NCBI GenBank assembly: GCA_017525525.1
Contig: JAFXSQ010000045.1
Coordinates: 1 to 59,804, forward strand
DNA: 59,804 nucleotides
Origin: Lachnospiraceae bacterium
GTDB taxonomy: Bacteria; Bacillota; Clostridia; Lachnospirales; Lachnospiraceae
Direction of reading: 5' to 3'
Shown: positions 14,466 through 50,833 of the stretch, one piece after another
Position numbering within the stretch: the first letter of the stretch is position 1
Layout of the letters: each line of letters begins with the position of its first letter
Program-made: the position numbers and the translations under genes
Notes under the pieces: model-generated
Told to the model about the DNA's origin: nothing
Databases searched by the model: none
What the model saw: only the letters and a program-made list of their open reading frames with translations

Positions 14466-14545
14466 ATTCTCGGCGCGACGGGAAATTGTTTTCGGGGTGC
14501 CTTTCACAGTAACCCGAAAACAATTATCCCAGGCAGCCAAGCCGG
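14466..14545. ncRNA. Structured 80-nt intergenic element, copy A
   Basis: It begins ATTCTCGGCGCGACGGG and ends CAGCCAAGCCGGT. The centre is a perfect 13-bp hairpin, AATTGTTTTCGGG / CCCGAAAACAATT (14484-14525). GCATAATT and AATTATGC flank the element and can form an outer stem. Copy C at 50731-50810 has the same length and ends but a rewritten hairpin. Confidence 0.6.
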
Positions 14546-14615
14546 TAAACCTCGTGTCGCTAAATTATGCGTCATATTCTCCACTTTTTCTCTGCTCATG
14601 CAACTGATTTTTTTC

Positions 14616-14644
14616 TTGACATATTTATGTAAACAGTATAGAAT
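14616..14644 (+). promoter_or_regulatory. rny promoter
   Basis: TTGACA (14616-14621), 17-bp spacer, TAGAAT (14639-14644), about 50 bp before the rny start. Confidence 0.7.
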
Positions 14645-14697
14645 TAGACCGTTGTATTTCTTTATACGACTAATTTAATAAGGAGGTGCGCCTGGGA

Positions 14698-16239
14698 ATG
14701 ATTTACGTTATTTTCGCTATAATTCTCGTCGTTGCCTGCGTTGCTACATGGTTTGCGGCTGTCACATACAGGAAGAACGTTGCGGAAGCAAAGCTCGGCA
14801 AAGCAGAAGACAAGGCAAGGGAAATTATAGATGACGCTATAAAGTCAGCCGAGGCCAAGAAGCGCGAAATCCTCCTCGAAGCCAAAGAAGATGCGTTGAA
14901 GACAAAGAATGACATGGAAAAGGAAGTTAAGGACCGTCGTAATGAGGTTCAGCGCATGGAGAAGAGAGTACTCCAGAGGGAGGAAAACTTAGACAAGAAG
15001 ATTGAGGCTTGCGAGAAAAAGGAAGCTGAGCTCAGCAGTAAAGAAGATGAGCTTGCTAAGCGCAAGGAAGAGCTTTCGGATTTGGAAGTAAAACGTACTC
15101 AGGAACTCGAAAGGATATCGGGACTCACCTCTGAACAGGCAAAGGAATACTTATTAAGGACTGTTGAAGACGAAGTAAAACACGAAACTGCAGTCATGAT
15201 CAAAGAACTTGAAACCAGAGCGAAAGAAGAAGCAGACAAGAAGGCAAAGGAATATGTGGTAAGCGCTATACAGAAGTGCGCTGCGGATCAGGTATCCGAG
15301 ACAACCATATCACTTGTTCAGTTGCCTAACGATGAAATGAAGGGACGAATCATAGGCCGCGAGGGAAGGAATATAAAAGCCCTCGAAACCCTTACCGGTG
15401 TAGATCTTATCATAGATGATACTCCGGAGGCGGTACTGTTATCAAGCTTTGATCCGGTTCGCCGTGAGGTGGCAAGGATCGCGCTTGAGAAACTCATCTT
15501 AGATGGCAGGATACATCCTGCAAGAATTGAAGAGACAGTCGAGAAAGCGCAGAAGGAAGTTGAGAATGTTATGCGTGAAGCCGGTGAGGCAGCAATCCTT
15601 GAGGTTGGTGTTCACGGTATACATCCCGAGCTTGTCAGACTTCTTGGTAAGATGAAGTACAGGACAAGCTACGGTCAGAATGTATTAAAGCATTCAATAG
15701 AGGTAGCCCTGCTTTCCGGTCTGCTTGCCGGTGAGCTCGGATTAGACGTTCGTTTGGCTAAGCGTGCAGGTCTTCTGCACGATATTGGTAAATCACTTGA
15801 TCATGAGATGGAAGGATCGCATGTCCAGATAGGTGTGGATCTTTGTAGAAAGTACAAGGAGTCGGCTATTGTTATAAACGCCGTTGAAGCACACCACGGA
15901 GATGTTGAGCCGCAGAGCTTGATTGCATGCATAGTTCAGGCAGCTGATACTATTTCAGCCGCAAGACCGGGTGCAAGAAGAGAGACGTTGGAGACATATA
16001 CCACGAGATTAAAGTCGCTTGAGGAAATTGCAAACGGCTTCAAGGGAGTGGATAAGACCTTTGCTATTCAGGCAGGTAGAGAGATCCGTGTAATGGTAGT
16101 TCCTGAACAGGTAAGTGACGCAGACATGATACTTCTGGCAAGAGATATTTCAAAGCAGATTGAAAATGAGCTTGAATATCCCGGTCAGATTAAGGTCAAT
16201 GTCGTAAGAGAGTCACGGGTTATTGATTACGCGAAATAA
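14698..16239 (+). CDS. rny: Ribonuclease Y
   Basis: This is a 513-residue membrane-anchored endoribonuclease that initiates mRNA decay. Layout: an N-terminal TM helix (about 1-22), a long Lys/Glu coiled coil (about 25-150), a KH RNA-binding domain ([15 protein letters not shown]), and an HD phosphohydrolase domain with [10 protein letters not shown]. Start ATG 14698 is chosen with AGGAGG at 14681-14686; the in-frame GTG 14686 overlaps that site. It has its own promoter and ends in a strong terminator. Confidence 0.95.
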
Positions 16240-16245
16240 TCTTGA

Positions 16246-16273
16246 GGGATGCGGAACTACCGCATCCCTTTTC
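16246..16273 (+). terminator. rny terminator
   Basis: GGGATGCGG / CCGCATCCC, a 9-bp stem with a 5-base loop, followed by TTTTCT. Confidence 0.85.
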
Positions 16274-16294
16274 TAATTGTATGGAGGAAAGAAT

Positions 16295-16846
16295 ATGGTA
16301 GAGTTTAAGCGTGTTCGTCTTGAAAAAGCTTATGAATCAAGACTTGTCGAGGCTTATAAGGATTATCTTATCACTCCGGACGGCGAGGAGGTATGCTTTG
16401 ACCTTCTGCATCACAAGAGCGGAGGTGGTTCGGGAGCGCTCCTGGTTGATAAGGACGAGAATACATATCTTGTAAAGCTTTACAGGAATTCGGTTAATAA
16501 GGCAGTTTTGGAGATACCGGCCGGGGCATACAGCTTCATAGGCGAGTCAGGTGAAGTGTGCGCAATCAGAGAGGCTGAGGAGGAGACAGGGTATATTCCT
16601 CAGCGCATGATACATGTTTCCAACATGGTTTCTTCGATAGGCACGTATGATGAGACCACGGATGTATTTATTGGCCTTGATTTGAAGAAGGGTAAGCAGA
16701 AGCTTGATCCCACGGAGTATGTTGAGGTAATAAAGATGAGTATTGACGAAGCCTTTGCTTTGGTAGAGGACGGAACGATAATCGATTCCAAAACCGTTGC
16801 TGCGCTTTACGCATATAAGTATAAGAAGCTTAAGGGTGAGCTTTGA
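16295..16846 (+). CDS. Nudix hydrolase, ADP-ribose-pyrophosphatase-like
   Basis: This 183-residue protein has the Nudix helix REAEEETGY preceded by the GAYSFIGE segment. The glycine-to-glutamate spacing is one residue longer than in the classic GX5E pattern. The layout (N-terminal beta domain, VLEIPAGA before the box) matches ADP-ribose pyrophosphatases (NudF group), but the substrate cannot be fixed from sequence. ATG 16295 follows GGAGGAAAG; the in-frame TTG at 16277 overlaps that site and the terminator tail. Confidence 0.75.
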   Translation: MVEFKRVRLEKAYESRLVEAYKDYLITPDGEEVCFDLLHHKSGGGSGALLVDKDENTYLVKLYRNSVNKAVLEIPAGAYSFIGESGEVCAIREAEEETGYIPQRMIHVSNMVSSIGTYDETTDVFIGLDLKKGKQKLDPTEYVEVIKMSIDEAFALVEDGTIIDSKTVAALYAYKYKKLKGEL

Positions 16847-16918
16847 AAATAAGGGGTAGAAATAAGAAACTTAAAGTATTATAATTGGAATAGTTTATAT
16901 TCGGGGAGGAAAGAGAAG

Positions 16919-18622
16919 ATGTTTTGTAGTATTTGTGGTGCGCAGAATGCAGATGATGCAAGGTATTGCAGTGTTTGTGGTGCAGAACTGGCTGTTTCGG
17001 GCACCGTGCCGAACCCTTCGGAGTCGGATAATGATGATACGCCGACTGAGATACTTACCGGTCCCGATCCGGGGAATACCGCATTCGACAGCGGCAAGAC
17101 GGTTGCCTTTGGTTACGGCAGCAATAATGTCGGACAGCCGGGTACGCCTCAGGGGCAAACCGGGTATTTGAATGGGAATACGGGTTATCTTCAGGGACAG
17201 TCAGGGATGCTTCAGGGACAATCGGGTGTGATTCAGGGAGGTCCGTATAATCCGTCGTTTAACGGTCCGGGCAACAAGAAGAAGCCGTTCCCATGGCTCT
17301 ATGTGCTTGTCGGCGTGGCTGCACTTGCTGTAATCGCAGCAGTTGTCATTGTTATTCTTATGAACAAAAAGAATGGAGACAGCAGCGGAACTGAGGTTGC
17401 AGCTTCTACGGTGCAGACAACGGAAGCGGTATCTACTACTGAGGTAACCGAGAAAACTACCGAGAAGACCACCGAGAAGACGACTGAGGCAACTACTGAG
17501 GAAAAGGTTGCTGAGGCGCATGTTACATACAGGACTTATGTTCAGTCAAACGGATGGATGGACTGGGCCAAGGACGGCAAGGAAGCGGGCACGCAGGGAG
17601 AGTCTAAGCGCATAGAGGCTTTCCAGATGAAGCTCGAGGACTTAAAGCATGTTGACGGCGGAATCACATACAGAGCTTATGTTACCGATGAAGGCTGGCT
17701 TGACTGGGTAAGCAACACAGAGCAGGCAGGTAAGAAGGGTGAAGGAAAAAGCGTCGAGGCTATAGAGGTAAAGCTTACCGGAGAAGTGGCAGATTCCTTC
17801 GATGTATACTACTGTGTGTATGCGCAGGGACAGGGCTGGCTCGGCTGGGCAAAGAACGGTGAAACCGCTGGAACTAACGGCGGAAATAAGAGAGCGGAAT
17901 GCATAAAGATTCAGCTTGTGGACAAAAAGAAGGGTGAGGCGCCGAAGAGCGAAGGCGCTGCATTTGTAAAGATTGAAGAGAAGACTGAAGAGGAGAAGAA
18001 GGAAGGTTTAAGCCAGGAAGAGACGGTCGCGATGTATAAGGCTTATAGGGATGTATTAAATGCCGATGATACAAATAAGGCTGCAGGCGCAGGGGTTGCT
18101 TTGATGGATGTCACCGGAGATTCCGTTCCCGAGCTGATATATGAATCAATCGTTTCGGCTGATGATATCGGTATCAATATTGCAACCTTCTCGGATGGAG
18201 CGGTAAAGAACCTCTGTCAGCTTACAAGTAACAAAATGATGGCGGATTATTTTATCTTCACAAGGAAGGGAGAAAACACTCTATACCTGTGTCAGATGAA
18301 TAAGGCCAATATTATAGTGTTCTCATACAGCAGATTCCTCGTAAATGAAGCAGGAGGGTTAGGTACTGAAGTAATCCTCGGATCGGAAGCGGTGGATGGA
18401 CAGAGGGTATATCACGATAATTCCACCGGAACGATAGATGAAGCTGCATATAATAAGGCAGAGAGTGATCTTTTAGGTGGTATCGATAAGATAGTTACCC
18501 GCTCCGGAGATGACGAGGTTAAGCTTAACGACGGAACCGTTATCAAGATGTCGGGGTATGAGAATCTCGGCGGAACGGCAGAAGCTCTGACGAATTACTT
18601 AAGCTCCTTTATCGGAGAGTAA
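16919..18622 (+). CDS. Zinc-ribbon membrane protein with three ChW repeats
   Basis: This is a 567-residue protein. An N-terminal zinc ribbon (FCSICGAQN...YCSVCGAEL, residues 2-25) is cytosolic; a Gly/Gln-rich linker with NTGYLQGQSG-type repeats follows; one TM helix at about 124-146; a Thr/Glu-rich stalk; then three ChW (clostridial hydrophobic with conserved W) repeats at about 201-335, each with the pattern YR-x-YV..GW..W...G..AG..G..KR-x-EA-x-x-x-KL; and a C-terminal domain of unknown function (about 365-567, VALMDVTGDSVPELIY). The outer part probably binds envelope or host/substrate polymers. It shares the ChW repeats with the genes at 21378 and 23841. Confidence 0.7.
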   Translation: MFCSICGAQNADDARYCSVCGAELAVSGTVPNPSESDNDDTPTEILTGPDPGNTAFDSGKTVAFGYGSNNVGQPGTPQGQTGYLNGNTGYLQGQSGMLQGQSGVIQGGPYNPSFNGPGNKKKPFPWLYVLVGVAALAVIAAVVIVILMNKKNGDSSGTEVAASTVQTTEAVSTTEVTEKTTEKTTEKTTEATTEEKVAEAHVTYRTYVQSNGWMDWAKDGKEAGTQGESKRIEAFQMKLEDLKHVDGGITYRAYVTDEGWLDWVSNTEQAGKKGEGKSVEAIEVKLTGEVADSFDVYYCVYAQGQGWLGWAKNGETAGTNGGNKRAECIKIQLVDKKKGEAPKSEGAAFVKIEEKTEEEKKEGLSQEETVAMYKAYRDVLNADDTNKAAGAGVALMDVTGDSVPELIYESIVSADDIGINIATFSDGAVKNLCQLTSNKMMADYFIFTRKGENTLYLCQMNKANIIVFSYSRFLVNEAGGLGTEVILGSEAVDGQRVYHDNSTGTIDEAAYNKAESDLLGGIDKIVTRSGDDEVKLNDGTVIKMSGYENLGGTAEALTNYLSSFIGE

Positions 18623-18656
18623 CAGTTTACATAAATGTTAAGCATAATATGATAAA

Positions 18657-18690
18657 AGAACCGTATTTTGATAATACGGTTCTTTTTTTG
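18657..18690 (+). terminator. Terminator after the ChW membrane protein gene
   Basis: AGAACCGTATT / AATACGGTTCT, an 11-bp stem with a 5-base loop, followed by a T run (18683-18689). Confidence 0.85.
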
Positions 18691-18793
18691 CCTTGGCAAA
18701 TACCCTATATATAGACTGAAACTAACAAAAAAATCGATATATTGTACTATTACAAAAGAGTTACATTTTTGTTAAAAAAATCTTAAAAAGTAT

Positions 18794-18822
18794 TTGATTT
18801 TATGTAAATAAGATATTATAAT
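18794..18822 (+). promoter_or_regulatory. xerD promoter
   Basis: TTGATT (18794-18799), 17-bp spacer, TATAAT (18817-18822); the transcript would start about 25 bp before the ATG. Confidence 0.65.
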
Positions 18823-18854
18823 ATTCCTTGCTAAAACCATGAGTGAGGGTTCGT

Positions 18855-19745
18855 ATGAATGTATATGTAGAGCAATATGTTAATTATCTGAATACGGAGA
18901 AGAGGTCGAGCGCCAATACGGTGGCTTCCTATATCAGGGATTTAAACAAGTTGTTTGATTACCTGGGGGAGAAGGGAGCCGGAGACATAAATGATGTCAC
19001 TGAGTCGGATCTTACCTCTTATATCTTAAAGCTTGAGGAAACCGGCATGTCGCATGCCACGATTTCGAGGAGTATCTCATCTATCAAGTCGTTTTTTATG
19101 TACCTTTTCAGGAAGGGCGTAATACATGAGGATTTGACTGACAAGCTTAAGTCGCCTAAGGTTGAGAAAAAGGTACCGGATACCCTGTCCGTAAAAGAGA
19201 TAAACCTTCTGCTGGAGCAGCCGAAGGGCTCGGGCGCAAAGGAGGTCAGGGACAAGGCCATGCTGGAGCTTTTGTACGCCACGGGAATGAGAGTGTCGGA
19301 GCTTATATCAATTAAGGCAACTGATGTCAATCTGCAGTTTGGCTTCATTGTGTGCAAGGATGCCAACAAAGAGAGGGTAATTCCGATTGAGGAGATTGCC
19401 GAGGAAGCTTTGAAGAAATACATGGATGAAGTGAGAATGACTATATGCGGAGATTCGGAGTACCTGTTCGTGAACATGAAGGGACAGCCGATGTCGCGTC
19501 AGGGCTTCTGGAAGCTTATAAAGGCGTATGCTTTAAAGGCAGGCATAGATAAGGATATAACCCCGCACATGATAAGACATTCGTTTGCTTCGCATCTTGT
19601 GTCAAACGGAGCCGATTTAAAGGCGGTTCAGGAGATGCTCGGACATTCTGATATATCTACGACTCAGATATACCTTAGAAGTCGACAGAGCAGACTTAAA
19701 GAAGAGTATGAAAAGGCGCATCCGAGAGCAAGGATGAGAGCATAG
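18855..19745 (+). CDS. xerD: Site-specific tyrosine recombinase XerD
   Basis: This 296-residue protein has an N-terminal core-binding SAM-like domain (about 1-85) and the catalytic domain with all tyrosine-recombinase residues: R146 (TGMRVSEL), K172, H238-x2-R241 (HMIRHSF), H264 (LGHSDISTT) and Y273. It resolves chromosome dimers at dif. ATG 18855 is preferred over GTG 18843, which overlaps the ribosome site GTGAGGG. It is a stand-alone chromosomal gene, not adjacent to mobile cargo. Confidence 0.9.
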   Translation: MNVYVEQYVNYLNTEKRSSANTVASYIRDLNKLFDYLGEKGAGDINDVTESDLTSYILKLEETGMSHATISRSISSIKSFFMYLFRKGVIHEDLTDKLKSPKVEKKVPDTLSVKEINLLLEQPKGSGAKEVRDKAMLELLYATGMRVSELISIKATDVNLQFGFIVCKDANKERVIPIEEIAEEALKKYMDEVRMTICGDSEYLFVNMKGQPMSRQGFWKLIKAYALKAGIDKDITPHMIRHSFASHLVSNGADLKAVQEMLGHSDISTTQIYLRSRQSRLKEEYEKAHPRARMRA

Positions 19746-19767
19746 TGAGTATAACATAAAAAAGCAA

Positions 19768-19938
19768 GTGTCATCCTGAGTGATTGCGACGCAGACCTCA
19801 ATGCGAAGCGTTGAGGTGCCGGCCTTCGATGTCATAAGGAATCCACCGCAAGCGGTACCCCTTATGACGAAATGCGAGGGCTTGCGAAGCAACAGGAAGG
19901 ATCTTAATAAAGATTCTTCACTTCGTTCAGAATGACAC
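19768..19938. repeat. Composite GTGTCAT repeat with terminal inverted ends
   Basis: It begins GTGTCATCCTGAG and ends with the reverse complement, CTTCGTTCAGAATGACAC. Internal hairpins: CCTCAA/TTGAGG (about 19796-19816) and GTCATAAGG/CCTTATGAC (19829-19868). The 171-bp, MITE-like unit has no ORF and lies between the convergent xerD and aroC genes. Confidence 0.6.
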
Positions 19939-19956
19939 TTTTTTATGTACACGTTA

Positions 19957-20082
19957 GCGTAATGTAAATTGTCACTTCGTCGCGGACAGCGTAGCGATAA
20001 GTGAGACCGGAAATCTTTGATTTCCGTTGTCGAACTTATACAGAGTAGCAGGGCGCGACTTCGTCTGTCCTGCCGGATAGCA
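19957..20082. ncRNA. Structured intergenic element, copy D
   Basis: It begins GCGTAATGTAAATTG, a sequence shared with 22640-22654. GGACAG (19984-19989) pairs with CTGTCC (20065-20070); ATAAGT (19997-20002) with ACTTAT (20034-20039); and GGAAAT (20009-20014) with ATTTCC (20020-20025). The last two stems recur with changes at 37257-37298. Confidence 0.5.
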
Positions 20083-20085
20083 TAA

Positions 20086-21180
20086 TTAGTATATTTTCTT
20101 CATGTTCTCTATTTTAGCGCCCATATTCGAGAGCATAAGGTCAAGTATTGTAATGGCGCACATGCTCTCAACCACAACCACGGCGCGCGGACCGATTATC
20201 GGATCGTGGCGGCCCTTGATGGCAAGGGTTACATTTTCGTGATTTTGGTTGACGGTCTGCTGTTCACTGAAGATGGAAGGCGTGGGTTTGAAGGAGGCGC
20301 GAAGAACAAGCTTGCTTCCGTCGCTTATACCGCCTAAGGTTCCGCCTGAGTGGTTTGAAAGCTTTGTTACAACATTGCCGTCCGACGAGAACGGATCGTT
20401 GTTAAGAGAACCGCGGTTTCGCGCGGCCTCGGTACCGTCGCCTATCTCGACAGCCTTAACGGCGCCGATTGACATGACAGCCTGCGCAAGCCTGGCGTCG
20501 AGCTTGTCGAATACCGGATCGCCTATGCCGGCCGGAAGTCCGGTTACGATGCATTCGACGGAAGAGCCGACAGAGTCATACTCGGACATGATGTGCTTTA
20601 AGTAGTCGGAGGCTGCATTAGCGCAATCTGCGTCAGGCATGTAATGCGGATTTCGCATAATCTCGGCAGCATCGAACTTTTCGTAATCTATTGTAAGCTC
20701 TCCGATGGAGCGGGTGTAGGCAAGAAAGCTTATTCCAAATTCGGAGAGCGCCTTTTCGGCTATCGCGCCTGCGGCAACCCTTCCTATGGTCTCTCTTCCG
20801 GAGGAGCGTCCGCCTCCTCGGTAATCACGAAAACCGTATTTTTCATCAAAGGTGTAATCTGCGTGGCCGGGGCGGTAAGTGTAGGCTATCTCACCATAGT
20901 CTCCGGAGTGCTGGTCGGTGTTGCTGACCATGATTGAAATCGGTGTGCCTGTAGTTTTTCCTTCGAATACTCCCGAGAGTATGACGGCGGTGTCAGCTTC
21001 GTTTCTCTGAGTGGAGAAGCTGCTTTGTCCCGGCTTTCTCCTGTCCAAAAGCTTCTGTATATCGTCCTCGCATAGGGGCACGCCTGCGGGGCAGCCGTCT
21101 ATCACTGCTCCCAAGCCCTTACCGTGTGATTCTCCCCAGGTTGTAACTGTAAATATTTTTCCGAAAGATGATCCGGCCAT
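20086..21180 (-). CDS. aroC: Chorismate synthase
   Basis: This 364-residue enzyme converts EPSP to chorismate using reduced FMN, the last shared step of aromatic amino acid synthesis. Signatures: GESHGKGLGAVIDGCPAG near 16-33, RPGHADYTFDEKYGFRDYRGGGRSS region (His/Arg ligands) and RAVVVVESMCAI near the C-terminus. It is transcribed away from the ChW-transglutaminase gene; the 197-bp divergent region holds that gene's promoter. Confidence 0.95.
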   Translation of the reverse strand: MAGSSFGKIFTVTTWGESHGKGLGAVIDGCPAGVPLCEDDIQKLLDRRKPGQSSFSTQRNEADTAVILSGVFEGKTTGTPISIMVSNTDQHSGDYGEIAYTYRPGHADYTFDEKYGFRDYRGGGRSSGRETIGRVAAGAIAEKALSEFGISFLAYTRSIGELTIDYEKFDAAEIMRNPHYMPDADCANAASDYLKHIMSEYDSVGSSVECIVTGLPAGIGDPVFDKLDARLAQAVMSIGAVKAVEIGDGTEAARNRGSLNNDPFSSDGNVVTKLSNHSGGTLGGISDGSKLVLRASFKPTPSIFSEQQTVNQNHENVTLAIKGRHDPIIGPRAVVVVESMCAITILDLMLSNMGAKIENMKKIY

Positions 21181-21287
21181 TTTTATATCCCTTTCTTTTG
21201 TTATAGTGGATGTAAAACATCCCCATTATACTTATGTTTTGCAAAAAAATAAAGAAAAAAATTTTGATGAGAATAACACGAAAATAG

Positions 21288-22571: not shown

Positions 22572-22582
22572 TTGATAATGAC

Positions 22583-28368: not shown

Positions 28369-28383
28369 CGACGCAATTCAGCG
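28369..28383 (-). repeat. 15-bp sequence shared with 33646-33660
   Basis: CGACGCAATTCAGCG is the exact reverse complement of CGCTGAATTGCGTCG at 33646-33660, just before argB. It lies shortly after hisG and upstream of the 73-bp array. Confidence 0.4.
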
Positions 28384-28452
28384 ATAACAAGCGGGGAAAG
28401 AAGGCTGAGATGGGCTTTAGGAAGGCTCTTGGTTCCGTGGCTCGTGGCTCTT

Positions 28453-28756
28453 GACTACCAAAGGTTGTAGAAAGGCCGAAAAAGGTAGCCAAAAACGCTA
28501 AAATGAGCCCGGGATTGCGGAGAATGGCTACCAAAAGTTGTTAAAACGCCGAAAAAGGTAGCCAAAAGTGAAAAAAACAGCCGGAAATCGCGGAGACTGG
28601 CTACCAAAAGTTGTTAAAACACCGAAAAAGGTAGCCAAAAGCGAGAAAAACAGCCGGAAATCGCGGAGATTGGCTACCAAAAGTTGTTAAAACACCGAAA
28701 AAGGTAGCCAAAAACGAAAAAATAAGCTTAAAAATTACCGAATATGGCTACCCAAA
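28453..28756. repeat. 73-bp tandem repeat array 1 (between hisG and hisD)
   Basis: Units begin at 28453, 28526, 28599 and 28672, with a final partial unit at 28746. Each has GGCTACC-AAAA near its start (GACTACC in the first) and GGTAGCC about 30 bases later; these are exact inverted repeats and could form a hairpin. The units are near-identical throughout, so this is not CRISPR-like, and the period of 73 is not a multiple of 3, so it is noncoding. The array sits between histidine genes hisG and hisD. Confidence 0.85.
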
Positions 28757-33512: not shown

Positions 33513-33633
33513 ATTCTCGGCGCGAGGAGCATGTGTTTTGAGGGAGCATCGACCGAAAAACACATGTCCGGGATAAGTGAGACCTTAGCGAGCTTGCGAG
33601 CGTAGTTCGAACTTATGCAAAGCTCCGAGCCAG
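33513..33633. ncRNA. Structured intergenic element, copy B (two-hairpin form)
   Basis: It has the same ends as copies A and C (ATTCTCGGCGCGA ... CCGAGCCAG, with CTCGG/CCGAG pairing) but encloses two hairpins: CATGTGTTTT / AAAACACATG (33530-33566) and the ATAAGT / ACTTAT module (33573-33616) with tail GCAAAGCT. It lies between argJ and argB, about 45 bp before the argB start. Confidence 0.55.
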
Positions 33634-37020: not shown

Positions 37021-37330
37021 TTAAGTTAAGCAGGCCGCTGTACGACGTCCGTTCTTTGCGGGCGTTCTTTGACCGCTTAGAACGGCTGGAGCGTGTACCC
37101 GACGAACGAAGTGAGTCGTTGGTACCGCCCATGCGACAGGGCTCCGACGAGCTTGCGAGGAGGCTAAGCCCGAACCGCAAGTCGCGACCGGAGTGCGAGG
37201 AGGGGCGCAAATGACGAAGACATTTCTTGCATGCGCCACGACGACTGGACACGACGTAAGTGAGGCTCGAAATCTTTGATTTCGTCAGTCGAACTTATGC
37301 AAAGCTAAGAATGAGTCGTGTCATTACCTA
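37021..37330. ncRNA. GC-rich multi-hairpin intergenic island (element F)
   Basis: Serial hairpins: CCGTTCT/AGAACGG (37049-37085) with inner GCGG/CCGC; GTACC-CGAC/GTCG-TT-GGTAC (37095-37125); GGGCT/AGCCC (37139-37171); AAATG/CATTT (37209-37225); and GACACGAC/GTCGTGTC (37248-37322). The last encloses TAAGT/ACTTA and CGAAAT/ATTTCG. Flanking DNA is AT-rich. The short ORFs on the minus strand have no ribosome sites. This occupies the otherwise empty 36813-37525 gap. Confidence 0.5.
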
Positions 37331-41772: not shown

Positions 41773-41897
41773 TAGCACTGTGTCATGACTTAAGCAAAGC
41801 GCTGTGTCATGACTTAAGCATAGCACAGTGTCATTCTGAGCGAAGCGAAGAATCTTAATCAACAGTGAAGAATCTTAATCAACAGCGAAGAATCTTA
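41773..41897. repeat. GTGTCATTCTGAG repeat cluster (b)
   Basis: A full repeat at 41828-41857 (GTGTCATTCTGAGCGAAGCG then AAGAATCTTA) is followed by two 20-bp echoes ending GAAGAATCTTA (41858-41897). It is preceded by two GTGTCATGACTTAAGCA units (41780-41820). It sits between kinase and regulator genes that would normally be adjacent. Confidence 0.7.
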
Positions 41898-42709: not shown

Positions 42710-45553
42710 ATGGCAAATTCTGAAGAAAAAGATATAAATAAAGGAAAAGTCGGCAGCTTTTGGCGTCTGTATTTGATAGTCGGACTCGTAATACTGATAA
42801 TGCTCCTTATAGTTTATATTGCCCTGAGCAAGTCTAAAAGGGATCAGGCGTATCAGACTTCGGATCTTCTGATAAACCAGATTGAGAACGTGATTCACGG
42901 GAATGAGCGCAAAGAGCAGTCCCTAACCGATTCGCTGAAGGAGAGTTACATCTCCAAGGCCAAGGCGGTTGCATTTATCATAGATAATATACCTAATACC
43001 GAGTACTCGCTCGAAGAACTCAAGCGCATTGCCAAGCTCATGTCCATAGATGAGATACATCTGTTTACAGCAGACGGCGTTATATACAGCGGAACGGTGC
43101 CGGAGTATTACGGCTTCAGCTTTGATTCTGGAGAGCAGATGGCATATTTTAAGCCCATGCTTGAGGATAAAACTCTCTCTATGTGTCAGGATGTCACGCC
43201 GAATACCGCAGAGAGCAAGCCTATGATGTATGCAATATGCTGGAACGACAGCGGTACACGTATCATACAGGCCGGAATAGAACCCACTCGTCTTATAGAG
43301 GAGATGCAGAGCAACGAGATCTCTCAGGTCGTGGCAAATATACCGGCTTACGAAGGCGTGAAAATACTTGTTGCGGACAGGAACACAAAGGAAATCATGG
43401 GTTCCACAAATACGGATTACATCGGGATGACACTCTCCGATGTGGGTCTGGCCGGACACGATATGGAAGGAGAAGCAGTGGGACACTTTACTGCTTCTCT
43501 TGAAGGTAACAATTCATATTGCGCCATGCGGAATATGGAGGACTATTTAATAACGGTCGTGCAGGACAAGGCAACGGTCAATTCCGAGATACCGTTTACC
43601 CTGTTCTTAATCTTTGTATATCTTATGCTTGCGGCAGTATCCATCGCCATCATCGTCAAGCGTATGAACGACAGGAGGAACCGTATACAGGCCATTTCCG
43701 AGAGGGCAATCGCTGCCAGTCAGGCCAAGACCTCCTTCCTGTCTAATATGTCTCATGAGATACGTACGCCGATAAATGCAATCCTCGGTATGAACGAGAT
43801 GATCATGCGCGAGAGTAATGAGGCAGACTCGGATATCCGCATGTACTCGCAGAATATTAAAACGGCCGGCAATACGCTTTTGGGCATCGTCAATGATATA
43901 CTTGACTTCTCCAAGATAGAAGAGGGCAAGCTTGAGATAATCAATGTTGATTACGATCTTTCATCGGCAGTGAACGATCTTGTGAACATGATTAAAACAA
44001 GGCTCGATGACAAGGGGCTTTACTTGAAGCTTGATTTTGATAAGACCACTCCGAGGATGCTTAACGGAGACGAGATCAGGATAAAGCAGATAATCACCAA
44101 TATACTGTCCAATGCGGCAAAATATACGGAGAAGGGCAGTGTGACCTTCAGCGTGTCTTATGAAAAAGTCGAGGATGATCCGAATGCTATCGATCTTAAG
44201 GTGTCTGTCAGGGATACAGGTATAGGAATCCGTGATGAGGATATAGAGAAGCTCTTCTCGAGATTCGAGCGTATAGAGGAGAAGCGTAACAGAAGTATCG
44301 AGGGCGCAGGTTTGGGAATGAACATCACTCAGATGCTTCTTGAGATGATGGGAAGCTCACTGGTTGTGGAGAGCAAGTACGGAGAGGGCTCGGTATTCAG
44401 CTTTTCTATCAGGCAGAAGGTAGTGAAGTGGGAGCCTCTCGGCGATTACGAAGAGACCTGGAAACAGTCAGTAAAGTCGATGGCTGCCTATAAGGAGAAG
44501 TTCGTGGCTCCCGAAGCCGATATCCTTGTTGTGGACGATAACAGCCTTAATCTCATGGTATTTACCAGTCTTCTGAAGCGAACACAGATCAGGATAGATA
44601 AGTGTATGAGCGGCGATGAGGGAATCACGCTGGCATTAAAGAAGCATTATGATGTTATTTTTCTCGATCATATGATGCCGGAGAAGGATGGAGTGGAGAC
44701 GTTGCATGAATTAAAAGAAAACCCATCCAATCCCAATATTGATACGCCTTATATCTGTCTTACGGCCAATGCTATTTCCGGCGCGAGGGAGGAGTATATC
44801 AATGCAGGCTTCAACGATTATCTGACCAAGCCTATCAATACCGATGAGCTTGAGAAGATGCTGATCAGATATCTGCCGGAGGCTAAGGTTACGAAGACAA
44901 AAGCAGAGGAGGATTCTTCGCAGGCAGAGGAAAATACGCAGGAGCTGCCGGAGGCTCTCGCGGGACTCGGAGATATTGGTATCGATGTAGCGTCAGGCGT
45001 TGAAAGCAGCGGTTCGCTCGAGGTTTATATATCTGTTTTGAATGTGTTCTGCAAGTCGATAGACGGCAACAAGGCTGAGATAGAAGAACACTATAGGTCA
45101 GGTGACTTCGGGAATTATACCATCAAGGTGCATGCGTTAAAGAGCTCGGCGCGAATAATCGGAGCTCGGGAGCTCGGAGAGGAAGCGCAGGCACTCGAGA
45201 ATGCCGGCAAGAGTAATGATATAGCATACATCAGGGAGCATCATGATGCGTTTATCGAGAGGTATCTGGCGGTTAAGGAGCCTCTTGAGCATGCAATCGG
45301 AATGCTGAAAGAGGACGAGAGTGACGAGAATGAAGATAAGCCGATTGCGGACAGTGCGCTGCTTTCGGCAGTCTATGATGAGATGAAAAGCGCCGCAGCC
45401 GAAATGGATATCGAAAGTCTAGAGATGATACTCGATGAGATGAAGGATTACAGCATACCGGAGGATGAAAAGGAGTTGTTCGATGTTCTCAAGAAAGCGG
45501 TACAGGATATAGATTATGAAACGATAATCAACAGGCTCGAAGCAAGGCAATAG
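42710..45553 (+). CDS. Hybrid sensor kinase: sensor-HisKA-HATPase-REC-HPt
   Basis: This 947-residue protein has TM1 (about 19-39), an extracellular Cache-like sensor (about 45-290), TM2 (about 296-316), HisKA with H349 (SNMSHEIRTP), HATPase (GIGIRDEDIEKLF, EGAGLGMNIT), a receiver domain (about 604-725, VVDDNSLN and FLDHMMPEKDG), and a C-terminal HPt domain with VHALKSSARIIGA. All phosphorelay elements are on one chain; no DNA-binding output lies next to it, so a distant regulator is expected. Confidence 0.88.
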   Translation: MANSEEKDINKGKVGSFWRLYLIVGLVILIMLLIVYIALSKSKRDQAYQTSDLLINQIENVIHGNERKEQSLTDSLKESYISKAKAVAFIIDNIPNTEYSLEELKRIAKLMSIDEIHLFTADGVIYSGTVPEYYGFSFDSGEQMAYFKPMLEDKTLSMCQDVTPNTAESKPMMYAICWNDSGTRIIQAGIEPTRLIEEMQSNEISQVVANIPAYEGVKILVADRNTKEIMGSTNTDYIGMTLSDVGLAGHDMEGEAVGHFTASLEGNNSYCAMRNMEDYLITVVQDKATVNSEIPFTLFLIFVYLMLAAVSIAIIVKRMNDRRNRIQAISERAIAASQAKTSFLSNMSHEIRTPINAILGMNEMIMRESNEADSDIRMYSQNIKTAGNTLLGIVNDILDFSKIEEGKLEIINVDYDLSSAVNDLVNMIKTRLDDKGLYLKLDFDKTTPRMLNGDEIRIKQIITNILSNAAKYTEKGSVTFSVSYEKVEDDPNAIDLKVSVRDTGIGIRDEDIEKLFSRFERIEEKRNRSIEGAGLGMNITQMLLEMMGSSLVVESKYGEGSVFSFSIRQKVVKWEPLGDYEETWKQSVKSMAAYKEKFVAPEADILVVDDNSLNLMVFTSLLKRTQIRIDKCMSGDEGITLALKKHYDVIFLDHMMPEKDGVETLHELKENPSNPNIDTPYICLTANAISGAREEYINAGFNDYLTKPINTDELEKMLIRYLPEAKVTKTKAEEDSSQAEENTQELPEALAGLGDIGIDVASGVESSGSLEVYISVLNVFCKSIDGNKAEIEEHYRSGDFGNYTIKVHALKSSARIIGARELGEEAQALENAGKSNDIAYIREHHDAFIERYLAVKEPLEHAIGMLKEDESDENEDKPIADSALLSAVYDEMKSAAAEMDIESLEMILDEMKDYSIPEDEKELFDVLKKAVQDIDYETIINRLEARQ

Positions 45554-45608
45554 CCGAATATAAATACCTCGTGGTAAATGCTGCGAGGTGTTTTAATATG
45601 CGGCGTGA

Positions 45609-46265
45609 GAGAAACGAGCTTCGTATGTGCCGATTATATTCGGGATAGTTGTATCGCTGATTCCCGTAAAGAAGGAGCGTAAGGGGAACGCGGGAATTGA
45701 CTTCGCGCATCTTTCGGAGAGAGCCATGCTTTATGTGGTGTTCACCTTTGGTGAGATGGTAATTGCCATAGCGGAGTATTTTGACGGTGAACTGAATTTC
45801 AACAGCATATACTTTTCGCTGATGGCCTTTTTGATTGTGGTCGGGCTGTTCCTAAGCTACGGTACATTTTATGATAAGATTATAGATCGTGAGCAGGAGA
45901 ATAACGGACTGTTCTACATGCTCTTACATATCTTTATAATTTTTGCTCAGAACAGCATCACCAGTTCGCTTGAGTTTATGCGTGACGGGAACATGAAGCT
46001 GCTGCCGAAGGAAGCTTTCCTTATCGGATCGTTATTCACGTTTTTTGTGTTCCTTTTCCTCACAAGAAGGTACTCAAGGACGGTGTGCAGGCCGACTGCG
46101 AAGTTCTATATGCAGATGATTCTGATAGCAATAAGCTTCGTGGTTTTGATGATCATATTCAGGGACAATATGTGTGTGAACATTACAATAAGCGCAGGGT
46201 ATATATGGATTGTTTATTCGGTGATTTATTGGATGAGTAGGAAAGAAAGGCACGTGTCATCCTGA
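45609..46265 (+). pseudogene. 5'-truncated ltrA-like membrane protein
   Basis: The open frame begins after TGA 45606-45608 without an ATG. It encodes about six helices matching the C-terminal half of low-temperature-requirement A (LtrA) proteins (HLSERAMLYVVFTFGEMVIAI). The family is about 370-400 residues, so roughly the N-terminal half is missing. The 3' end is also altered: the last codons, VSS-stop, come from a GTGTCATCCTGAG repeat. It is probably a dead remnant, though GTG 45627 could start a short product. Confidence 0.65.
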
Positions 46266-46283
46266 GCGAAGCGAAGGATCTTA
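46254..46283 (+). repeat. GTGTCATCCTGAG repeat (c)
   Basis: GTGTCATCCTGAGCGAAGCG followed by AAGGATCTTA. It supplies the stop codon (TGA 46263-46265) of the ltrA fragment. Confidence 0.7.
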
Positions 46284-46306
46284 AGGAATGAGGGGAGAAA
46301 AAGGTT

Positions 46307-47185
46307 ATGGGGAAGGAAAAAAATACTGAGAAAAAACGAAGATCAGATTTCTTTGAAATGGTTAAGTATTGGACGGTGGAGGATTATTACAACCCGGGAA
46401 CCAAAGCTGAGGTGATCTGGGATATGCTCTTGTCGGAATTTATTCCGGATATAATCTGCTTCATAGAAGAAAACAAGTCAAATGAGGATAATAGATTCAA
46501 AATTTTGGCAAAAGAGTTTCCTTTGAAAGTCTGTAAAGATAAACAAGATGAAAAAGACAGCAAAAGCTTAAGGAATGTAAAACTTGATTATCTAGTTGAT
46601 AGCCCTGAATACTTGTATTTTGTCGAGCTTAAAACTACCAATTACAGTTTTGATTACGAGCAGTTTGAACGTTACTGTAATTATGTCGGGAAAGATGAAG
46701 ACAAAAAAGAAGAATACAAATGGTGTGGATTATGGGGTTTTTACTATAAAATTCTTGAGAGCAGAATAATACAGAGTTTTTTTGGAAAAACTAAGATAGA
46801 TAATAATTCTTCCGAAAATCATATCGTACATAATAAGTATGAAAAGCAGGCAAAACATATATATGAAGTATATGTAGGACCGTATAAAGATAAAGAAAAA
46901 GATCTTTTTATTAAAAGGCTAAGAGAAAAAGTAAAACAAAATGCTAAACCTATAAAACTTGTGTATTTGTTATTTAATTCTATTGAATTTAAGAAAGAGA
47001 AGCTAACCGAAGAATTACGAAATAGATATTCAAATATAGAGAAGTACATTAGTTTTGTATCATTAAAAGATTTGATAAAAGAAAACACTTTTTCATTGAA
47101 CCAGGAAAAATCGGGAACATGGGCTTCGATAAAGGAGATTATAGAAGAGATATATAGAAGAGTTGAAAGTAAATCGGAGGCATAG
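46307..47185 (+). CDS. PD-(D/E)XK-like protein
   Basis: This 292-residue protein has a candidate nuclease motif: D94 in VKLDYLVD and E107-x-K109 in YFVELKTTNYSFDYEQ, with hydrophobic strands on both sides. This spacing is that of PD-(D/E)XK phosphodiesterases. Lys-rich composition and clearly lower G+C than neighbours suggest recent acquisition. It lies 1 base before the MBL gene (stop 47183-47185, ATG 47187), implying a two-gene unit. Function could be DNA/RNA cleavage; there is no direct family match in memory. Confidence 0.5.
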   Translation: MGKEKNTEKKRRSDFFEMVKYWTVEDYYNPGTKAEVIWDMLLSEFIPDIICFIEENKSNEDNRFKILAKEFPLKVCKDKQDEKDSKSLRNVKLDYLVDSPEYLYFVELKTTNYSFDYEQFERYCNYVGKDEDKKEEYKWCGLWGFYYKILESRIIQSFFGKTKIDNNSSENHIVHNKYEKQAKHIYEVYVGPYKDKEKDLFIKRLREKVKQNAKPIKLVYLLFNSIEFKKEKLTEELRNRYSNIEKYISFVSLKDLIKENTFSLNQEKSGTWASIKEIIEEIYRRVESKSEA

Positions 47186-47186
47186 T

Positions 47187-48599
47187 ATGAACCATATTCG
47201 GATATATCAGGGCAATCAGATAGGCGGGTGTGTGACGGTCATTACGGTCGTGCATAACGGTGAGACGCGCAGGATTATGATAGATTACGGTTCGTCGCTT
47301 CCGGGCAGTGGGGTGGAAAAGGACTTTGATTATCCGTGGGAGGATGAGCCGGTGGATGCGGTGTTCTTCACGCACTATCACGGTGACCATGTGGGAAGGA
47401 TAGCGGAGATACCACGGGGAATCCCGCTGTACATGGGAGCGACGGCGAGGCAGGCGATGATCAATATCGAGGATGCTCTTTCAAAAAGCAGAAAAAGCAG
47501 CGAGGAGGAAAGAGAGCTTCACAGGCAGAAGCTTGAACTGCTACAGGATGATGAGACTGTAAATGTGTTTAATTACAACGGAAGCTTCTATGATCCGATT
47601 GATGACATCCCGGGATTTCACATAGAGCCCTTCAGTGTCGATCATTCGGCTTATGATGCGTATATGTTTCTGATAGAGTTGGAAGATGACACCAGGCCTG
47701 ACGGTAAATATCGAGTGCTTCACACCGGCGATTTCAGGGGACACGGAAGACGAGGCCATGTCATGCTCCCGCTGATATGGAAAGCCGTGCGCCGTAAAGG
47801 AAAGAGAAACGTCGATGCTCTGGTGATAGAGGGTACCATGATGAGCAGGATGACAGAGAAGGTGCTGACCGAGGAGCAGATGCAGCGTGAAGCCGAAGAG
47901 TATCTGACGAAGAACAAGTATGCTTTTTTGATTTGCTCATCGACCAATGTTGATTCGCTTGCGAGCTTTTACGAGGCGGCTCAGTGGGCGGGGGGATATC
48001 CGCATGGAAGGTATATGTATGTTTACAGTAATTATTTTTTAAAGCAGCTGGAGCTTTATACCCATACGGCAGGTTCTTACGCGACGATATACAGATTTTT
48101 AAAGACGGATCTGCTCGATAATATGGATAAGCAGCACAAGAGTGCGAGGATGACCGAACCCATGACACAGCGGCAGCTTATGGAGCGCAACGGATTTCTT
48201 GCAGTGATAAAGCCGGAGGATTTCTGTGAAAAGTATATTGATATGTTCATGGAGGCTTACAACTCCGGGCGAATAAATCAAAAGCCGGTGCTGATCTACT
48301 CAATGTGGGAAGAGTATATAAATCCGAAAAATGATAAAGTACAAAAGGACAAGTGGATTGCCTTTATTGAGAAGCAGAAAGCAAAGGGAATAGAGGTAAA
48401 GCGTCTTCACACAAGCGGACACGCGACAGCTTCGATGATCGAAGAGGTTATAAATGCGGTGGCTCCGACTGATAAGATATACCCGATGCATACGGAACGC
48501 GCCGATGCATTCCCTGAGCTTAACATAGGCAGCTTACGGGATAAAATAGTTCCGCAAAACGACGAGAGCTATGTAAGAATTACATACAAGCATGAATAA
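47187..48599 (+). CDS. RNase-J/CPSF-like MBL-fold hydrolase
   Basis: This 470-residue protein has the metal motif H63-x-H65-x-D67-H68 (FTHYHGDHVGR), SVDHSAYDAY, HTGDFRGHG and a C-terminal LHTSGHATASMIEEVI ... YPMHTE segment. The last resembles the motif order of beta-CASP RNA hydrolases such as RNase J (HVSGHA ... IPIHGE). It is shorter than RNase J (about 555) and lacks its C-terminal domain. ATG 47187 follows CGGAGGCATAGT. The substrate is uncertain, RNA or a nucleotide second messenger. Confidence 0.65.
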   Translation: MNHIRIYQGNQIGGCVTVITVVHNGETRRIMIDYGSSLPGSGVEKDFDYPWEDEPVDAVFFTHYHGDHVGRIAEIPRGIPLYMGATARQAMINIEDALSKSRKSSEEERELHRQKLELLQDDETVNVFNYNGSFYDPIDDIPGFHIEPFSVDHSAYDAYMFLIELEDDTRPDGKYRVLHTGDFRGHGRRGHVMLPLIWKAVRRKGKRNVDALVIEGTMMSRMTEKVLTEEQMQREAEEYLTKNKYAFLICSSTNVDSLASFYEAAQWAGGYPHGRYMYVYSNYFLKQLELYTHTAGSYATIYRFLKTDLLDNMDKQHKSARMTEPMTQRQLMERNGFLAVIKPEDFCEKYIDMFMEAYNSGRINQKPVLIYSMWEEYINPKNDKVQKDKWIAFIEKQKAKGIEVKRLHTSGHATASMIEEVINAVAPTDKIYPMHTERADAFPELNIGSLRDKIVPQNDESYVRITYKHE

Positions 48600-48636
48600 C
48601 CCATCCCGAGTCCCTGTTGCTTTCTAAAAAAGATGT

Positions 48637-48935
48637 GGCTAACAAAACGGCGAAAAATCAAGGAAAAGGTAGCCGAAATCAGGAAAACCGGAGCAAAAAA
48701 ACAGGAAACGGCTAACAAAACAGTAAAAAATTAAGGAAAAGGTAGCCGAAATCAGGAAAACCGGAGCAAAAAAACGGAAAACGGCTAACAAAACAGTAAA
48801 AAACTAAGGAAAAGGTAGCCGAAATCAGGAAAACCGGAGCAAAAAAACGGAAAACGGCTAACAAAACAGTAAAAAACTAAGGAAAAGGTAGCCGGAACCG
48901 AAAACCGGAGCAAAACCAGAACAAAAAACGTCCGA
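48637..48935. repeat. 73-bp tandem repeat array 2
   Basis: Units begin at 48637, 48710, 48783 and 48856, exactly 73 bp apart. Each has GGCTAAC-AAAAC followed about 31 bases later by AAGG-AAAAGGTAGCC and then CAGGAAAACCGGAGC. This is the same period and the same GGCTA-x-C / GGTAGCC pair as array 1, 20 kb away. The period is not divisible by 3, and no cas genes are near. Confidence 0.85.
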
Positions 48936-48946
48936 AGCAAAAATCG

Positions 48947-48986
48947 TATGTGGAAAAATGACTTATACAAAAATCGTATGTGGAAA
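48947..48986 (+). repeat. Short direct repeat before the T-box promoter
   Basis: CAAAAATCGTATGTGGAAAA occurs twice in a row, at 48939-48958 and 48968-48987 by hand reading. The second copy abuts the promoter at 48995. It may be an operator or the residue of array expansion. Confidence 0.35.
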
Positions 48987-48994
48987 AATCGCGG

Positions 48995-49023
48995 TTGACA
49001 AATGTATGCTCCATGTGTTAAAG
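48995..49023 (+). promoter_or_regulatory. Promoter of the T-box transcript
   Basis: TTGACA (48995-49000), 17-bp spacer, TTAAAG (49018-49023). Confidence 0.55.
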
Positions 49024-49034
49024 TCGCATAAACC

Positions 49035-49290
49035 GTTGACGAAGAGTAGTAGGCAGGGTTAAGCTCTTTTAAGAGAGCCGCAGGCGGTGGGATTGCGGCA
49101 GAGACACCTTGTGCGAATGGACTTCCGAGGGCGACCTGAAATCATAGTAGGGAAGACGGAGAGGCCTCCGTTATCAAAGCCGGCATATGAAAGTATGCGA
49201 TGAGTGGATGCAAAAGCATCAAGCCGGGTGGCACCGCAGGTTGAATTGATACCTGTCCCAGCAGTAACTACTGAGGGGACAGTTTTTTTT
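49035..49290 (+). promoter_or_regulatory. Tryptophan T-box leader with terminator
   Basis: The hallmark T-box bulge sequence GGGTGGCACCGC is at 49226-49237, followed by a terminator CCTGTCCC ... GGGGACAG and T8 (49252-49290). A TGG codon followed by A at 49118-49120 (GCGAATGGACTTCC) is the best specifier, matching tRNA-Trp and the downstream TrpB. Uncharged tRNA-Trp would bind and favour the antiterminator, so the gene is expressed on tryptophan starvation. The specifier is inferred from its place in stem I. Confidence 0.85.
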
Positions 49291-49320
49291 GTCCCTTAAA
49301 ATGAAAAGGAGGATTACACT

Positions 49321-50697
49321 ATGTCAGAAAACAAGATCCCTTACAAGATCTATCTTGAGGAAAGCGAGATGCCGAAGCAGTGGTACAATGTACGCTCCGA
49401 TATGAAGAAGAAGCCGGCACCGCTTCTTAACCCGGGCACTTTGGAGCCCATGACTGTTGATGAGCTTTCGGGCGTGTTCTGCCGCGAGCTTGCCATGCAG
49501 GAGCTTGATGATACTACAGCTTATATTGACATACCTGATGAGATACGCGACTTCTACAAGATGTACCGTCCGTCACCACTTGTCAGGGCTTACTGCCTTG
49601 AGAAGAAGCTTGACACACCGGCACACATCTACTACAAGTTCGAGGGAAATAACACCTCGGGAAGCCACAAGCTTAATTCAGCCATAGCTCAGGCTTATTA
49701 CGCAAAGAAGCAGGGCTTGAAGGGTGTTACCACCGAGACCGGAGCAGGTCAGTGGGGTACGGCACTTTCCATGGCATGTTCATACTTTGACCTTGACTGC
49801 CAGGTGTACATGGTTAAGGTTTCTTACGAGCAGAAGCCTTTCAGACGCGAGGTTATGAGAACATACGGCGCAAAGGTTACACCGTCACCTTCGATGGAGA
49901 CAGAGATAGGAAGAAAGATCAACGCTGAGTTCCCGGGAACCACGGGAAGTCTTGGATGTGCCATATCGGAGGCTGTTGAGGCAGCTACGACCCAGGAGGG
50001 TTATCGTTATGTGCTCGGTTCAGTGCTCTCACAGGTTCTCCTTCACCAGAGTGTGATCGGTCTTGAGACAAAGGCAGCTCTTGACAAGTATGGAATAAAG
50101 GCTGATACCATCATCGGCTGCGCAGGCGGCGGTTCAAACTTAGGAGGTCTTATCTCTCCTTTCGCAGGCGAGATACTTCGTGGCGAGAACAACTACGAGA
50201 TAATCGCTGTTGAGCCCGCTTCATGCCCGAGCTTGACCAGAGGTGTCTATGCTTACGACTTCTGTGACACCGGAAAGGTGTGCCCGCTCGCGAAGATGTA
50301 CACTTTAGGAAGCGGCTTCATTCCATCCGCAAACCATGCGGGCGGACTTCGTTACCACGGTATGAGCTCGATAGTATCTGAGCTTTACGACCAGAAGATT
50401 ATCACCGCAAGAAGCGTCGAGCAGACAAGCGTATTCGAGGCTGCGGAGACCTTCGCAAGAGTTGAGGGCATACTTCCGGCGCCTGAGTCAAGCCACGCTA
50501 TTAGAGTTGCCATAGATGAGGCGTTAAAGTGCAAGGAGACAGGTGAGGAGAAGAATATCGTATTCGGTCTCACAGGTACAGGTTACTTCGACATGGTAGC
50601 ATATCAGAAATACAATGACAGAGAGATGAGTGACTACATACCGACGGACGAGGATCTGCAGAAGTCAATCTCAGCAATGCCTAAGGTAGACAAGTAA
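49321..50697 (+). CDS. trpB: Tryptophan synthase beta-like protein (TrpB2 type)
   Basis: This 458-residue PLP enzyme has the Schiff-base K117 in NTSGSHKLNSA and the phosphate-binding GCAGGGSNLGG. Length and N-terminal extension (about 80 residues before YRPSPLVRA) match TrpB2, the stand-alone form not bound by TrpA. It condenses indole and serine to tryptophan. No trpA or other trp gene lies nearby; an indole-salvage role is plausible. It is controlled by the tryptophan T-box. Confidence 0.9.
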   Translation: MSENKIPYKIYLEESEMPKQWYNVRSDMKKKPAPLLNPGTLEPMTVDELSGVFCRELAMQELDDTTAYIDIPDEIRDFYKMYRPSPLVRAYCLEKKLDTPAHIYYKFEGNNTSGSHKLNSAIAQAYYAKKQGLKGVTTETGAGQWGTALSMACSYFDLDCQVYMVKVSYEQKPFRREVMRTYGAKVTPSPSMETEIGRKINAEFPGTTGSLGCAISEAVEAATTQEGYRYVLGSVLSQVLLHQSVIGLETKAALDKYGIKADTIIGCAGGGSNLGGLISPFAGEILRGENNYEIIAVEPASCPSLTRGVYAYDFCDTGKVCPLAKMYTLGSGFIPSANHAGGLRYHGMSSIVSELYDQKIITARSVEQTSVFEAAETFARVEGILPAPESSHAIRVAIDEALKCKETGEEKNIVFGLTGTGYFDMVAYQKYNDREMSDYIPTDEDLQKSISAMPKVDK

Positions 50698-50708
50698 ACT
50701 AAGATATT

Positions 50709-50833
50709 AAGAGCAGTTTCAACAAAGTACATTCTCGGCGCGACGGGAAAATGTTTTCAGAGTGCATTTCAAAGCACTCTGAAAACAATTATCCCGGGCA
50801 GCCGAGCCAGACACTTGGTAAACTGCTCTTTTT
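50709..50833 (+). terminator. Terminator stem enclosing the structured element
   Basis: AAGAGCAGTTT (50709-50719) pairs exactly with AAACTGCTCTT (50820-50830) and is followed by TTTGTTT. The 80-nt element C is the loop of this unusually large terminator-like hairpin downstream of trpB. Confidence 0.6.
50731..50810. ncRNA. Structured 80-nt intergenic element, copy C
   Basis: Its ends are ATTCTCGGCGCGACGGG and GCCGAGCCAG, with a 6-bp CTCGGC/GCCGAG closing stem. The inner 13-bp hairpin GTTTTCAGAGTGC / GCACTCTGAAAAC (50753-50786) differs from copy A on both strands, so pairing is kept by matching changes. Confidence 0.65.

Follow-up and report, generated by a model that had tools for sequence, protein, structure and literature searches.

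Three copies of a non-coding intergenic repeat, A, B and C, lie in a contig of 59,804 nucleotides (nt) from a Lachnospiraceae bacterium (JAFXSQ010000045.1, assembly GCA_017525525.1), the whole of which is referred to here as the window. They are found behind recX, argJ and a trpB-like gene, as a sequence-only reading of the window had stated for recX, argJ and trpB; the RecX protein scores below the NCBIfam cut-offs, yet each of the 17 families listed for this protein is RecX. That reading had also described A (14466-14545) and C (50731-50810) as equal in length with near-identical ends, and B (33513-33633) as keeping the same ends around two different hairpins, and both statements are borne out: ungapped, A and C are 85% identical over 85 nt, and the ends common to the three copies are TTCTCGGCGCGA on the 5' side and GAGCC (AAGCC in A) on the 3' side. 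The opening 12-mer TTCTCGGCGCGA occurs exactly three times in the window and nine times in the genome to which the window belongs (G000; 3.19 Mb in 75 contigs), where all nine occurrences are elements; a reversed control pattern gave none. The single covarying hairpin that had been proposed does covary, but it is part of a set of three stacked stems (Table 1), the outermost of which, P1, had been overlooked. The claim that the inner stem has been rewritten holds across the family but was overstated for A and C alone: between these, two G-C pairs have become A-T on both sides, one pair is a G·T, and one is broken in A.

The folds of A and C beat those of all 200 shuffled sequences, both for the core (z -4.5 and -8.1, respectively) and with the outer stem (z -5.0 and -10.3). 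Copy B folds more weakly (core z -2.1, matched by 8 of 200 shuffles; z -2.4 with the outer stem, 1 of 200), and its P1, a weak helix with a score of 10.7, is missing from the predicted minimum-energy fold. The 5' arm of P1 in copy A begins within the last codons of recX, and in copy C a T run extends to 50833 after P1, giving this stem the appearance of an intrinsic terminator. Directly after copy C, and before a hybrid histidine kinase gene, there is a promoter-like site at 50835-50863 on the forward strand (TTTACA and TAAAAT separated by 17 nt, with TG before the second hexamer).

Table 1. Positions in the window of copies A, B and C, their parts and related sequences
Feature	Position	Strand	Remarks
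Copy A, full element, subtype I	14435-14570	+	between recX and RNase Y gene
Copy A, P1	14435-14451/14554-14570	+	
Copy A, P2	14469-14474/14536-14541	+	
Copy A, P3	14480-14530	+	
Copy A, internal loop		+	GCGAC/AGGCA
Copy A, terminal loop	14501-14508	+	CTTTCACA
Solo P4 module	19998-20039	+	outside any three-stem element
Lone P1 3'-arm-like sequence	28369-28382	-	GCTGAATTGCGTCG; no partner or core seen
Copy B, full element, subtype II, plus the additional hairpin P4	33486-33654	+	between argJ and argB
Copy B, P1	33486-33495/33645-33654	+	one mismatch
Copy B, P2	33516-33521/33625-33629	+	
Copy B, P3	33526-33569	+	
Copy B, P4 module	33574-33616	+	TAAGTGAG..ACTTAT
Second solo P4 module	37257-37298	+	embedded in another kind of repeat, whose outer stem, by eye, is GACACGAC/GTCGTGTC
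Copy C, full element, subtype I	50710-50833	+	behind trpB-like gene
Copy C, P1	50710-50719/50820-50829	+	
Copy C, P2	50734-50739/50801-50806	+	
Copy C, P3	50745-50795	+	
Copy C, terminal loop	50766-50773	+	ATTTCAAA

Extent and anatomy of the family

The family was collected with two covariance models, R1, built from C, A and one further copy, and R2, built from twelve copies of subtypes II and III. Once reverse-strand duplicates had been removed, together with one false match (L228, by eye similar to a tRNA gene end), the set examined comprised 50 copies, of which 36 are in G000, nine in G012 and five in G018, the last two assemblies being about 80% complete. No copy was detected with R2, at E-values up to 0.1, in 34 of the 37 genomes of the genus (G000 being one of the 37). 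A search across 392 genomes of the order provides weak evidence of absence, as eight candidates were scored per genome and G000 itself yielded only eight of its copies. A scan of genome contigs returned at least 118 stretches, and the matches listed belong, by title, mostly to unrelated taxa, with one relative (L088) among them. The comparison with Rfam suggested by the sequence-only reading gave no element region in the window at the gathering threshold of any of 4227 models (with no check made for skipping-rope among them), and nothing was found at the elements in ten loci with copies, up to an E-value of 1. No viral, plasmid or phage match was found in searches with one pattern or one copy each, which are weak tests. 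Among the titles and abstract openings returned by searches of open-access papers, none describes the present family, and a search of such papers on skipping-rope and terminators gave no match.

From the outside in, the element consists of the outer stem P1, the stem P2 (CTCGGC/GCCGAG and variants) and the inner hairpin P3, with a median P1-to-P1 length of 136 nt (range 114-201). The P1 helix spans 6-23 nt (median 12.5), and the spacers measure 7-29 nt on the 5' side (median 17) and 2-30 nt on the 3' side (median 13). The internal loop is GCGAC/AGGCA in subtype I and GCGA/GGGA in subtypes II and III. An 8-nt loop of P3 (ATTTCAAA, CTTTCACA or ATCACAAA) recurs in many copies, whereas some subtype II copies and G018 have loops of other sequence. 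Just outside P1, AAACA precedes the stem in 13 of 48 copies and GTCA follows it in 15 of 48, compared with the 2.6 and 1.8 expected from shuffled letters. Several copies have CAATTCAGC in common in P1. The five G018 copies (L193, L196, L199, L202 and L205) form a sub-family in which the base of P3 is nearly constant; four of the five copies have a P1, these P1 stems differ from one another, and each has AAACA before it and GTCA after it; P1 thus seems to be the stem that changes fastest in this sub-family. Some copies, including B, contain the further hairpin P4 (TAAGTGAG..ACTTATGCAAAG), which is cleanly present in L222 of G000 and missing from its G012 orthologue, L044.

Covariation of the stems

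Covariation was assessed by permutation and shuffle tests. In P2 and P3 of subtypes II and III (12 sequences), both sides have changed in 17 of 25 pairs and 93.8% of cells are paired, versus 74.7% after shuffling, with none of 500 shuffles as high; when the partners are slid by one to three columns, pairing falls to 31-58%. In subtype I (15 sequences, 14 pairs), eight pairs are double-changed and 90.5% of cells are paired (77.9% shuffled, 0/500), one P2 pair being seen as GC, AU, UA and CG; the count of further pair types is unexceptional (60/500). Over 49 copies, P2 forms 4.43 of five pairs, compared with 3.83 on permutation (maximum 4.10). For P1, the arms of 48 of the 50 copies have a helix score of 13.69 with their own partners and 8.49 when permuted (standard deviation 0.29; maximum of 10,000 permutations 9.64), the corresponding values for the 36 G000 copies alone being 14.1 and 8.6. 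The own score lies above the 95th percentile of cross pairs in 34 of 48 copies and the own partner is the best in 22, a rank test blunted by the presence of CAATTCAGC in several copies. The P1 test omits L038, which lies at a contig end, and L213, which is recombined on its 5' side and was also omitted from the P2 and P3 tests; the ends of the cores were corrected beforehand, nine of them by hand, and the uncorrected table gives a weaker result (own 11.2, cross 8.3, 49 copies). P1, P2 and P3 all covary. Enlarging the family by covariance-model search, as the sequence-only reading had proposed, therefore gives covariation above chance in larger alignments, and the family is held together by structure. 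It is a dispersed repeat as well, so that the earlier contrast between a structured RNA family and a simple repeat is supported only in part.

The strand that folds

A G·T mismatch on one strand corresponds to A·C on its complement. A double-stranded cruciform would therefore show no preference between the two, whereas a strand folding on its own tolerates G·T at these positions. On the element strand, P3 has 29 G·T and three A·C mismatches in 44 distinct helices, with both mismatches scored alike (49 copies, L213 omitted). The ratio is 17:2 for copies in sense with their neighbouring genes, 12:1 for antisense copies and 0:0 for the rest, and 21:3 (p 0.0003) when helices are grouped by hand for shared descent. 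The sense group contains copies from all three genomes, including L010 (divergent) and two copies without a downstream gene called, and orientation is taken from simple open reading frame calls, which differed between two settings for L039 and L056, both counted as antisense. The G·T excess in P3 suggests that the fold of one strand is selected, irrespective of gene direction. Matching of the stems without selection, by template-switching self-correction of palindromes, appears very improbable: such a process acts at the DNA level on any long hairpin, changing both arms together, and P1 and P2 alone show no G·T excess, but it would eliminate G·T as readily as A·C, contrary to the 29:3 in P3, and would leave the recurring unpaired loops unexplained.

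Orthologous sites

Seven orthologous pairs from G000 and G012 were compared. Three are nearly identical, L001/L048 (133/134), L060/L040 (138/140) and L045/L038 (71/71 in the core, the 5' flank being missing at a contig end), and the four-fold sites flanking them are only 50-74% identical. This near-identity of orthologues suggests that some loci may have acquired a local function later. Both the outer and the inner stems are rewritten in L004/L046 (48/64); L222/L044 (62/70) displays paired changes in P3, and L061/L042 (66/70) a paired change from CCCGTC/GACGGG to CCCGAC/GTCGGG. The core of L061 is identical to its paralogue L060 rather than to its orthologue L042, so copies probably exchange sequence within a genome, and conversion or replacement is likely at L061, judging from this identity. 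The L226/L213 pair is recombined on the 5' side.

Other orthologous sites are empty. At the sites of L054, L056 and L043, G012 has a short spacer or none and no hairpin, and G018 is also empty at the L043 site. At the site of copy B, G018 has about 60 nt where G000 has about 220, and it has other sequence at the L049 site. After trpB, the hairpins of G012 and G018 are plain ones with T runs, and their stems are different. The situation at copy C raised the idea of insertion into the loops of pre-existing hairpins, which was rejected as a general rule because the empty L054, L056 and L043 sites of G012 are hairpin-free and because AAACA and GTCA recur above expectation.

Genomic context

In both orientations, the majority of copies are found shortly after a stop codon. 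The neighbours of the 36 G000 copies are sense in 14 cases, antisense in 12, convergent in seven, divergent in two and undetermined in one, and many of the sense copies end (from the core end) 20-63 nt before the next start. Three of the five G018 copies lie between two sense genes, one is sense with the downstream gene not called and one is divergent. This arrangement, together with the near-invariance of the three orthologous pairs above, speaks in favour of a cis-acting structured RNA in operon messages, involved in processing, stability or attenuation between genes and spread by duplication only. We consider such an RNA rather unlikely, as sense and antisense copies are almost equally frequent in G000 and both groups have the G·T excess of P3 on the element strand, no common gene class was noticed among the neighbours (no systematic test was made) and some orthologous sites have no element. 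In particular, an mRNA element that acts in cis and is read in one direction is unlikely, given 36 copies in one genome against none detected in 34 others of the genus, empty orthologous sites and the lack of a fixed orientation.

The repeats could also be a family of intrinsic terminators with diverged stems, in which the stacked core is incidental. By eye, P1 is A-rich on the 5' side and T-rich on the 3' side in C, L045, L221, L054 and L002; four of the seven G000 copies of subtype III lie between convergent genes, and the hairpins found after trpB in G012 and G018 are terminator-like. However, no T run was noticed by eye behind the stems of most other copies (these were not counted), and the recurring internal loops and 8-nt loop are unnecessary for termination. 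A terminator scanner, which is blind to long-loop stems and to T runs pairing with A runs, returned nothing at L005 and L221; its calls at C were two short sites within the arms of P2 and P3 (0.3 expected) rather than P1. Termination is thus an improbable explanation for the family, and the comparison may apply to certain copies, for example to the outer stem of C.

A candidate mobile element

The reading that we favour, with a probability of about 0.46, is that of a structured, mobile-like element, about 140 nt long, which is non-autonomous, resembles REPINs and ERICs and was later co-opted between genes. As RNA or single-stranded DNA, the strand of the element itself would fold into stacked P1, P2 and P3, set apart by recurring unpaired motifs: GCGA or GCG[A/C]C, GGCA/GGGA, the ATTTCAAA-type loop and, in a minority, AAACA before and GTCA after P1. 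A putative factor would read this shape and the unpaired letters rather than the letters of the stems, and would spread or keep the element; with recognition of this kind, the stems would be expected to drift by paired changes. The selecting step would act on the element strand, most simply during spread or upkeep, because the polarity is independent of the direction of the neighbouring gene. Copies landing just behind a stop codon would become the intergenic region, where some stems apparently serve as terminators and some copies stay nearly unchanged between species.

ERIC/NEMIS-type miniature inverted-repeat transposable elements (MITEs) are about 100-150 nt long. Like the element, they are palindromic intergenic repeats, and they are thought to be non-autonomous (PMC3116915). 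The conserved terminal inverted repeats of MITEs are not seen here: the outer arms of the element are paired, yet most copies differ in the sequence of these arms, and no target-site duplication or parent transposon was found. Integron attC sites differ from the element in anatomy and motifs. They are nonetheless an analogue for shape recognition, being recognised by the structure of a folded strand with little sequence conservation (PMC2727003). Palindromic candidate structured RNAs of human microbiomes, many of them predicted to form terminators, are also covarying palindromic structures (PMC8040213), a likeness by description and not via the list in that paper.

REPINs work most like the element. 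They too are short, intergenic, multicopy and hairpin-forming, with conserved motifs and a compensating stem (PMC3116915), and the element likewise has a hairpin with compensatory changes between conserved motifs. They differ in having two conserved REPs around a spacer, where the element has three variable stems stacked on one another, with internal and terminal loops that recur, and the element is not classed as a REPIN because the defining RAYT gene is missing from its carriers: the Y1 (RAYT-type) transposase, PF01797, was not found in G000, G012 or G018, the last two about 80% complete as noted, by a search that was positive in 8 of the 37 genomes of the genus. It is doubtful, for this reason, that the element is REPIN/IS200-like and once travelled as single-stranded DNA with the help of a Y1 (HUH) transposase that acted in trans and has since been lost. 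IS608-like insertion is expected to be strand-biased, and the copies show no leading- or lagging-strand bias, 20 of the 36 lying on the strand of positive local GC skew and 16 on the negative (an approximate split, L060 being placed at the site of its identical paralogue). The P3 polarity suits single-stranded DNA as well as RNA, and a single-strand intermediate has been proposed for REPINs, with their conserved motifs and compensatory hairpin spacer (PMC3116915).

Several observations weigh against a mobile element recognised by its shape. No transposition was observed and no mobilising gene was found, Y1 included. Gains in G000 are indistinguishable from losses elsewhere, and a target-site duplication is not definable, the empty G012 and G018 sites having nearly no intergenic sequence to align. 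With 133 of 134 positions identical at four-fold sites of 60% identity, L001/L048 is too conserved for a neutral parasite. The end motifs AAACA and GTCA are enriched, not general; P2 is fully paired in only 30 of 49 copies and imperfect in 19, and P1 is weak or absent in several (L051, L061, L218 and L199 score below 8). The strand polarity is confined to P3: a strict count gives four G·T and eight A·C in P1, P2 has three and five, and a looser count over all stems, in which the P1 alignments extend into A-rich spacers, gives 60 and 67 (sense 34:37, antisense 20:25). Moreover, the copies share ancestry, so the mismatch counts are not independent, and the hand-grouped antisense events in P3 fall to 6:1 (p 0.125) without L039. 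A more specific version of the mobile reading, in which the element inherits a shape, is recognised as RNA or single-stranded DNA through its three stacked stems and recurring unpaired letters, is moved by an enzyme outside Y1/RAYT, has stems rewritable in each copy and shares the P4 module with other repeat families of its genome, is unlikely.

Other repeats in the window

P4 also occurs alone, within two other kinds of repeat (Table 1). A borderline Rfam match to GA-cis at 37195-37278 on the forward strand (36.1 bits, threshold 34.7) overlaps the second solo P4, and a stretch very similar to this GA-cis/P4 repeat is found in L258 (6233, minus strand). The isolated P1 arm at 28369 may be a remnant. 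An independent P1 repeat family was considered and rejected: a search of the three genomes with GCTGAATTGCGTCA, allowing up to two mismatches, gave seven matches at 0-1 mismatch, six at elements and one at this lone arm, and only some of the two-mismatch matches were inspected. Adjoining the arm is one of two clusters of repeats spaced by 73 nt (28452-28727 and 48637-48911; 60-94% identical to reference copies), the former with GGCTACC..GGTAGCC inverted motifs. A GTCATTCTGAGCGAAGCGAAGAATC-type intergenic repeat is present in both orientations (19904-19947, 41819-41862, 46249-46283 and 59439-59473); it also occurs close to elements at L006, L055 and L060, as well as in L311 of G018. The contig starts with a 214-nt direct repeat (1-214 and 867-1080, 92% identical).

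Implications

Across the many diverged copies within a single genome, the features retained are base pairing and certain unpaired loops. Bacteria commonly have short palindromic repeats, in which the target of selection is rarely clear. In this family, selection on P3 appears visible on one strand whatever the direction of the gene, so that the choice between RNA, single-stranded DNA and a cruciform becomes a directly testable question, and the pattern points to a factor in this lineage that would read shape.

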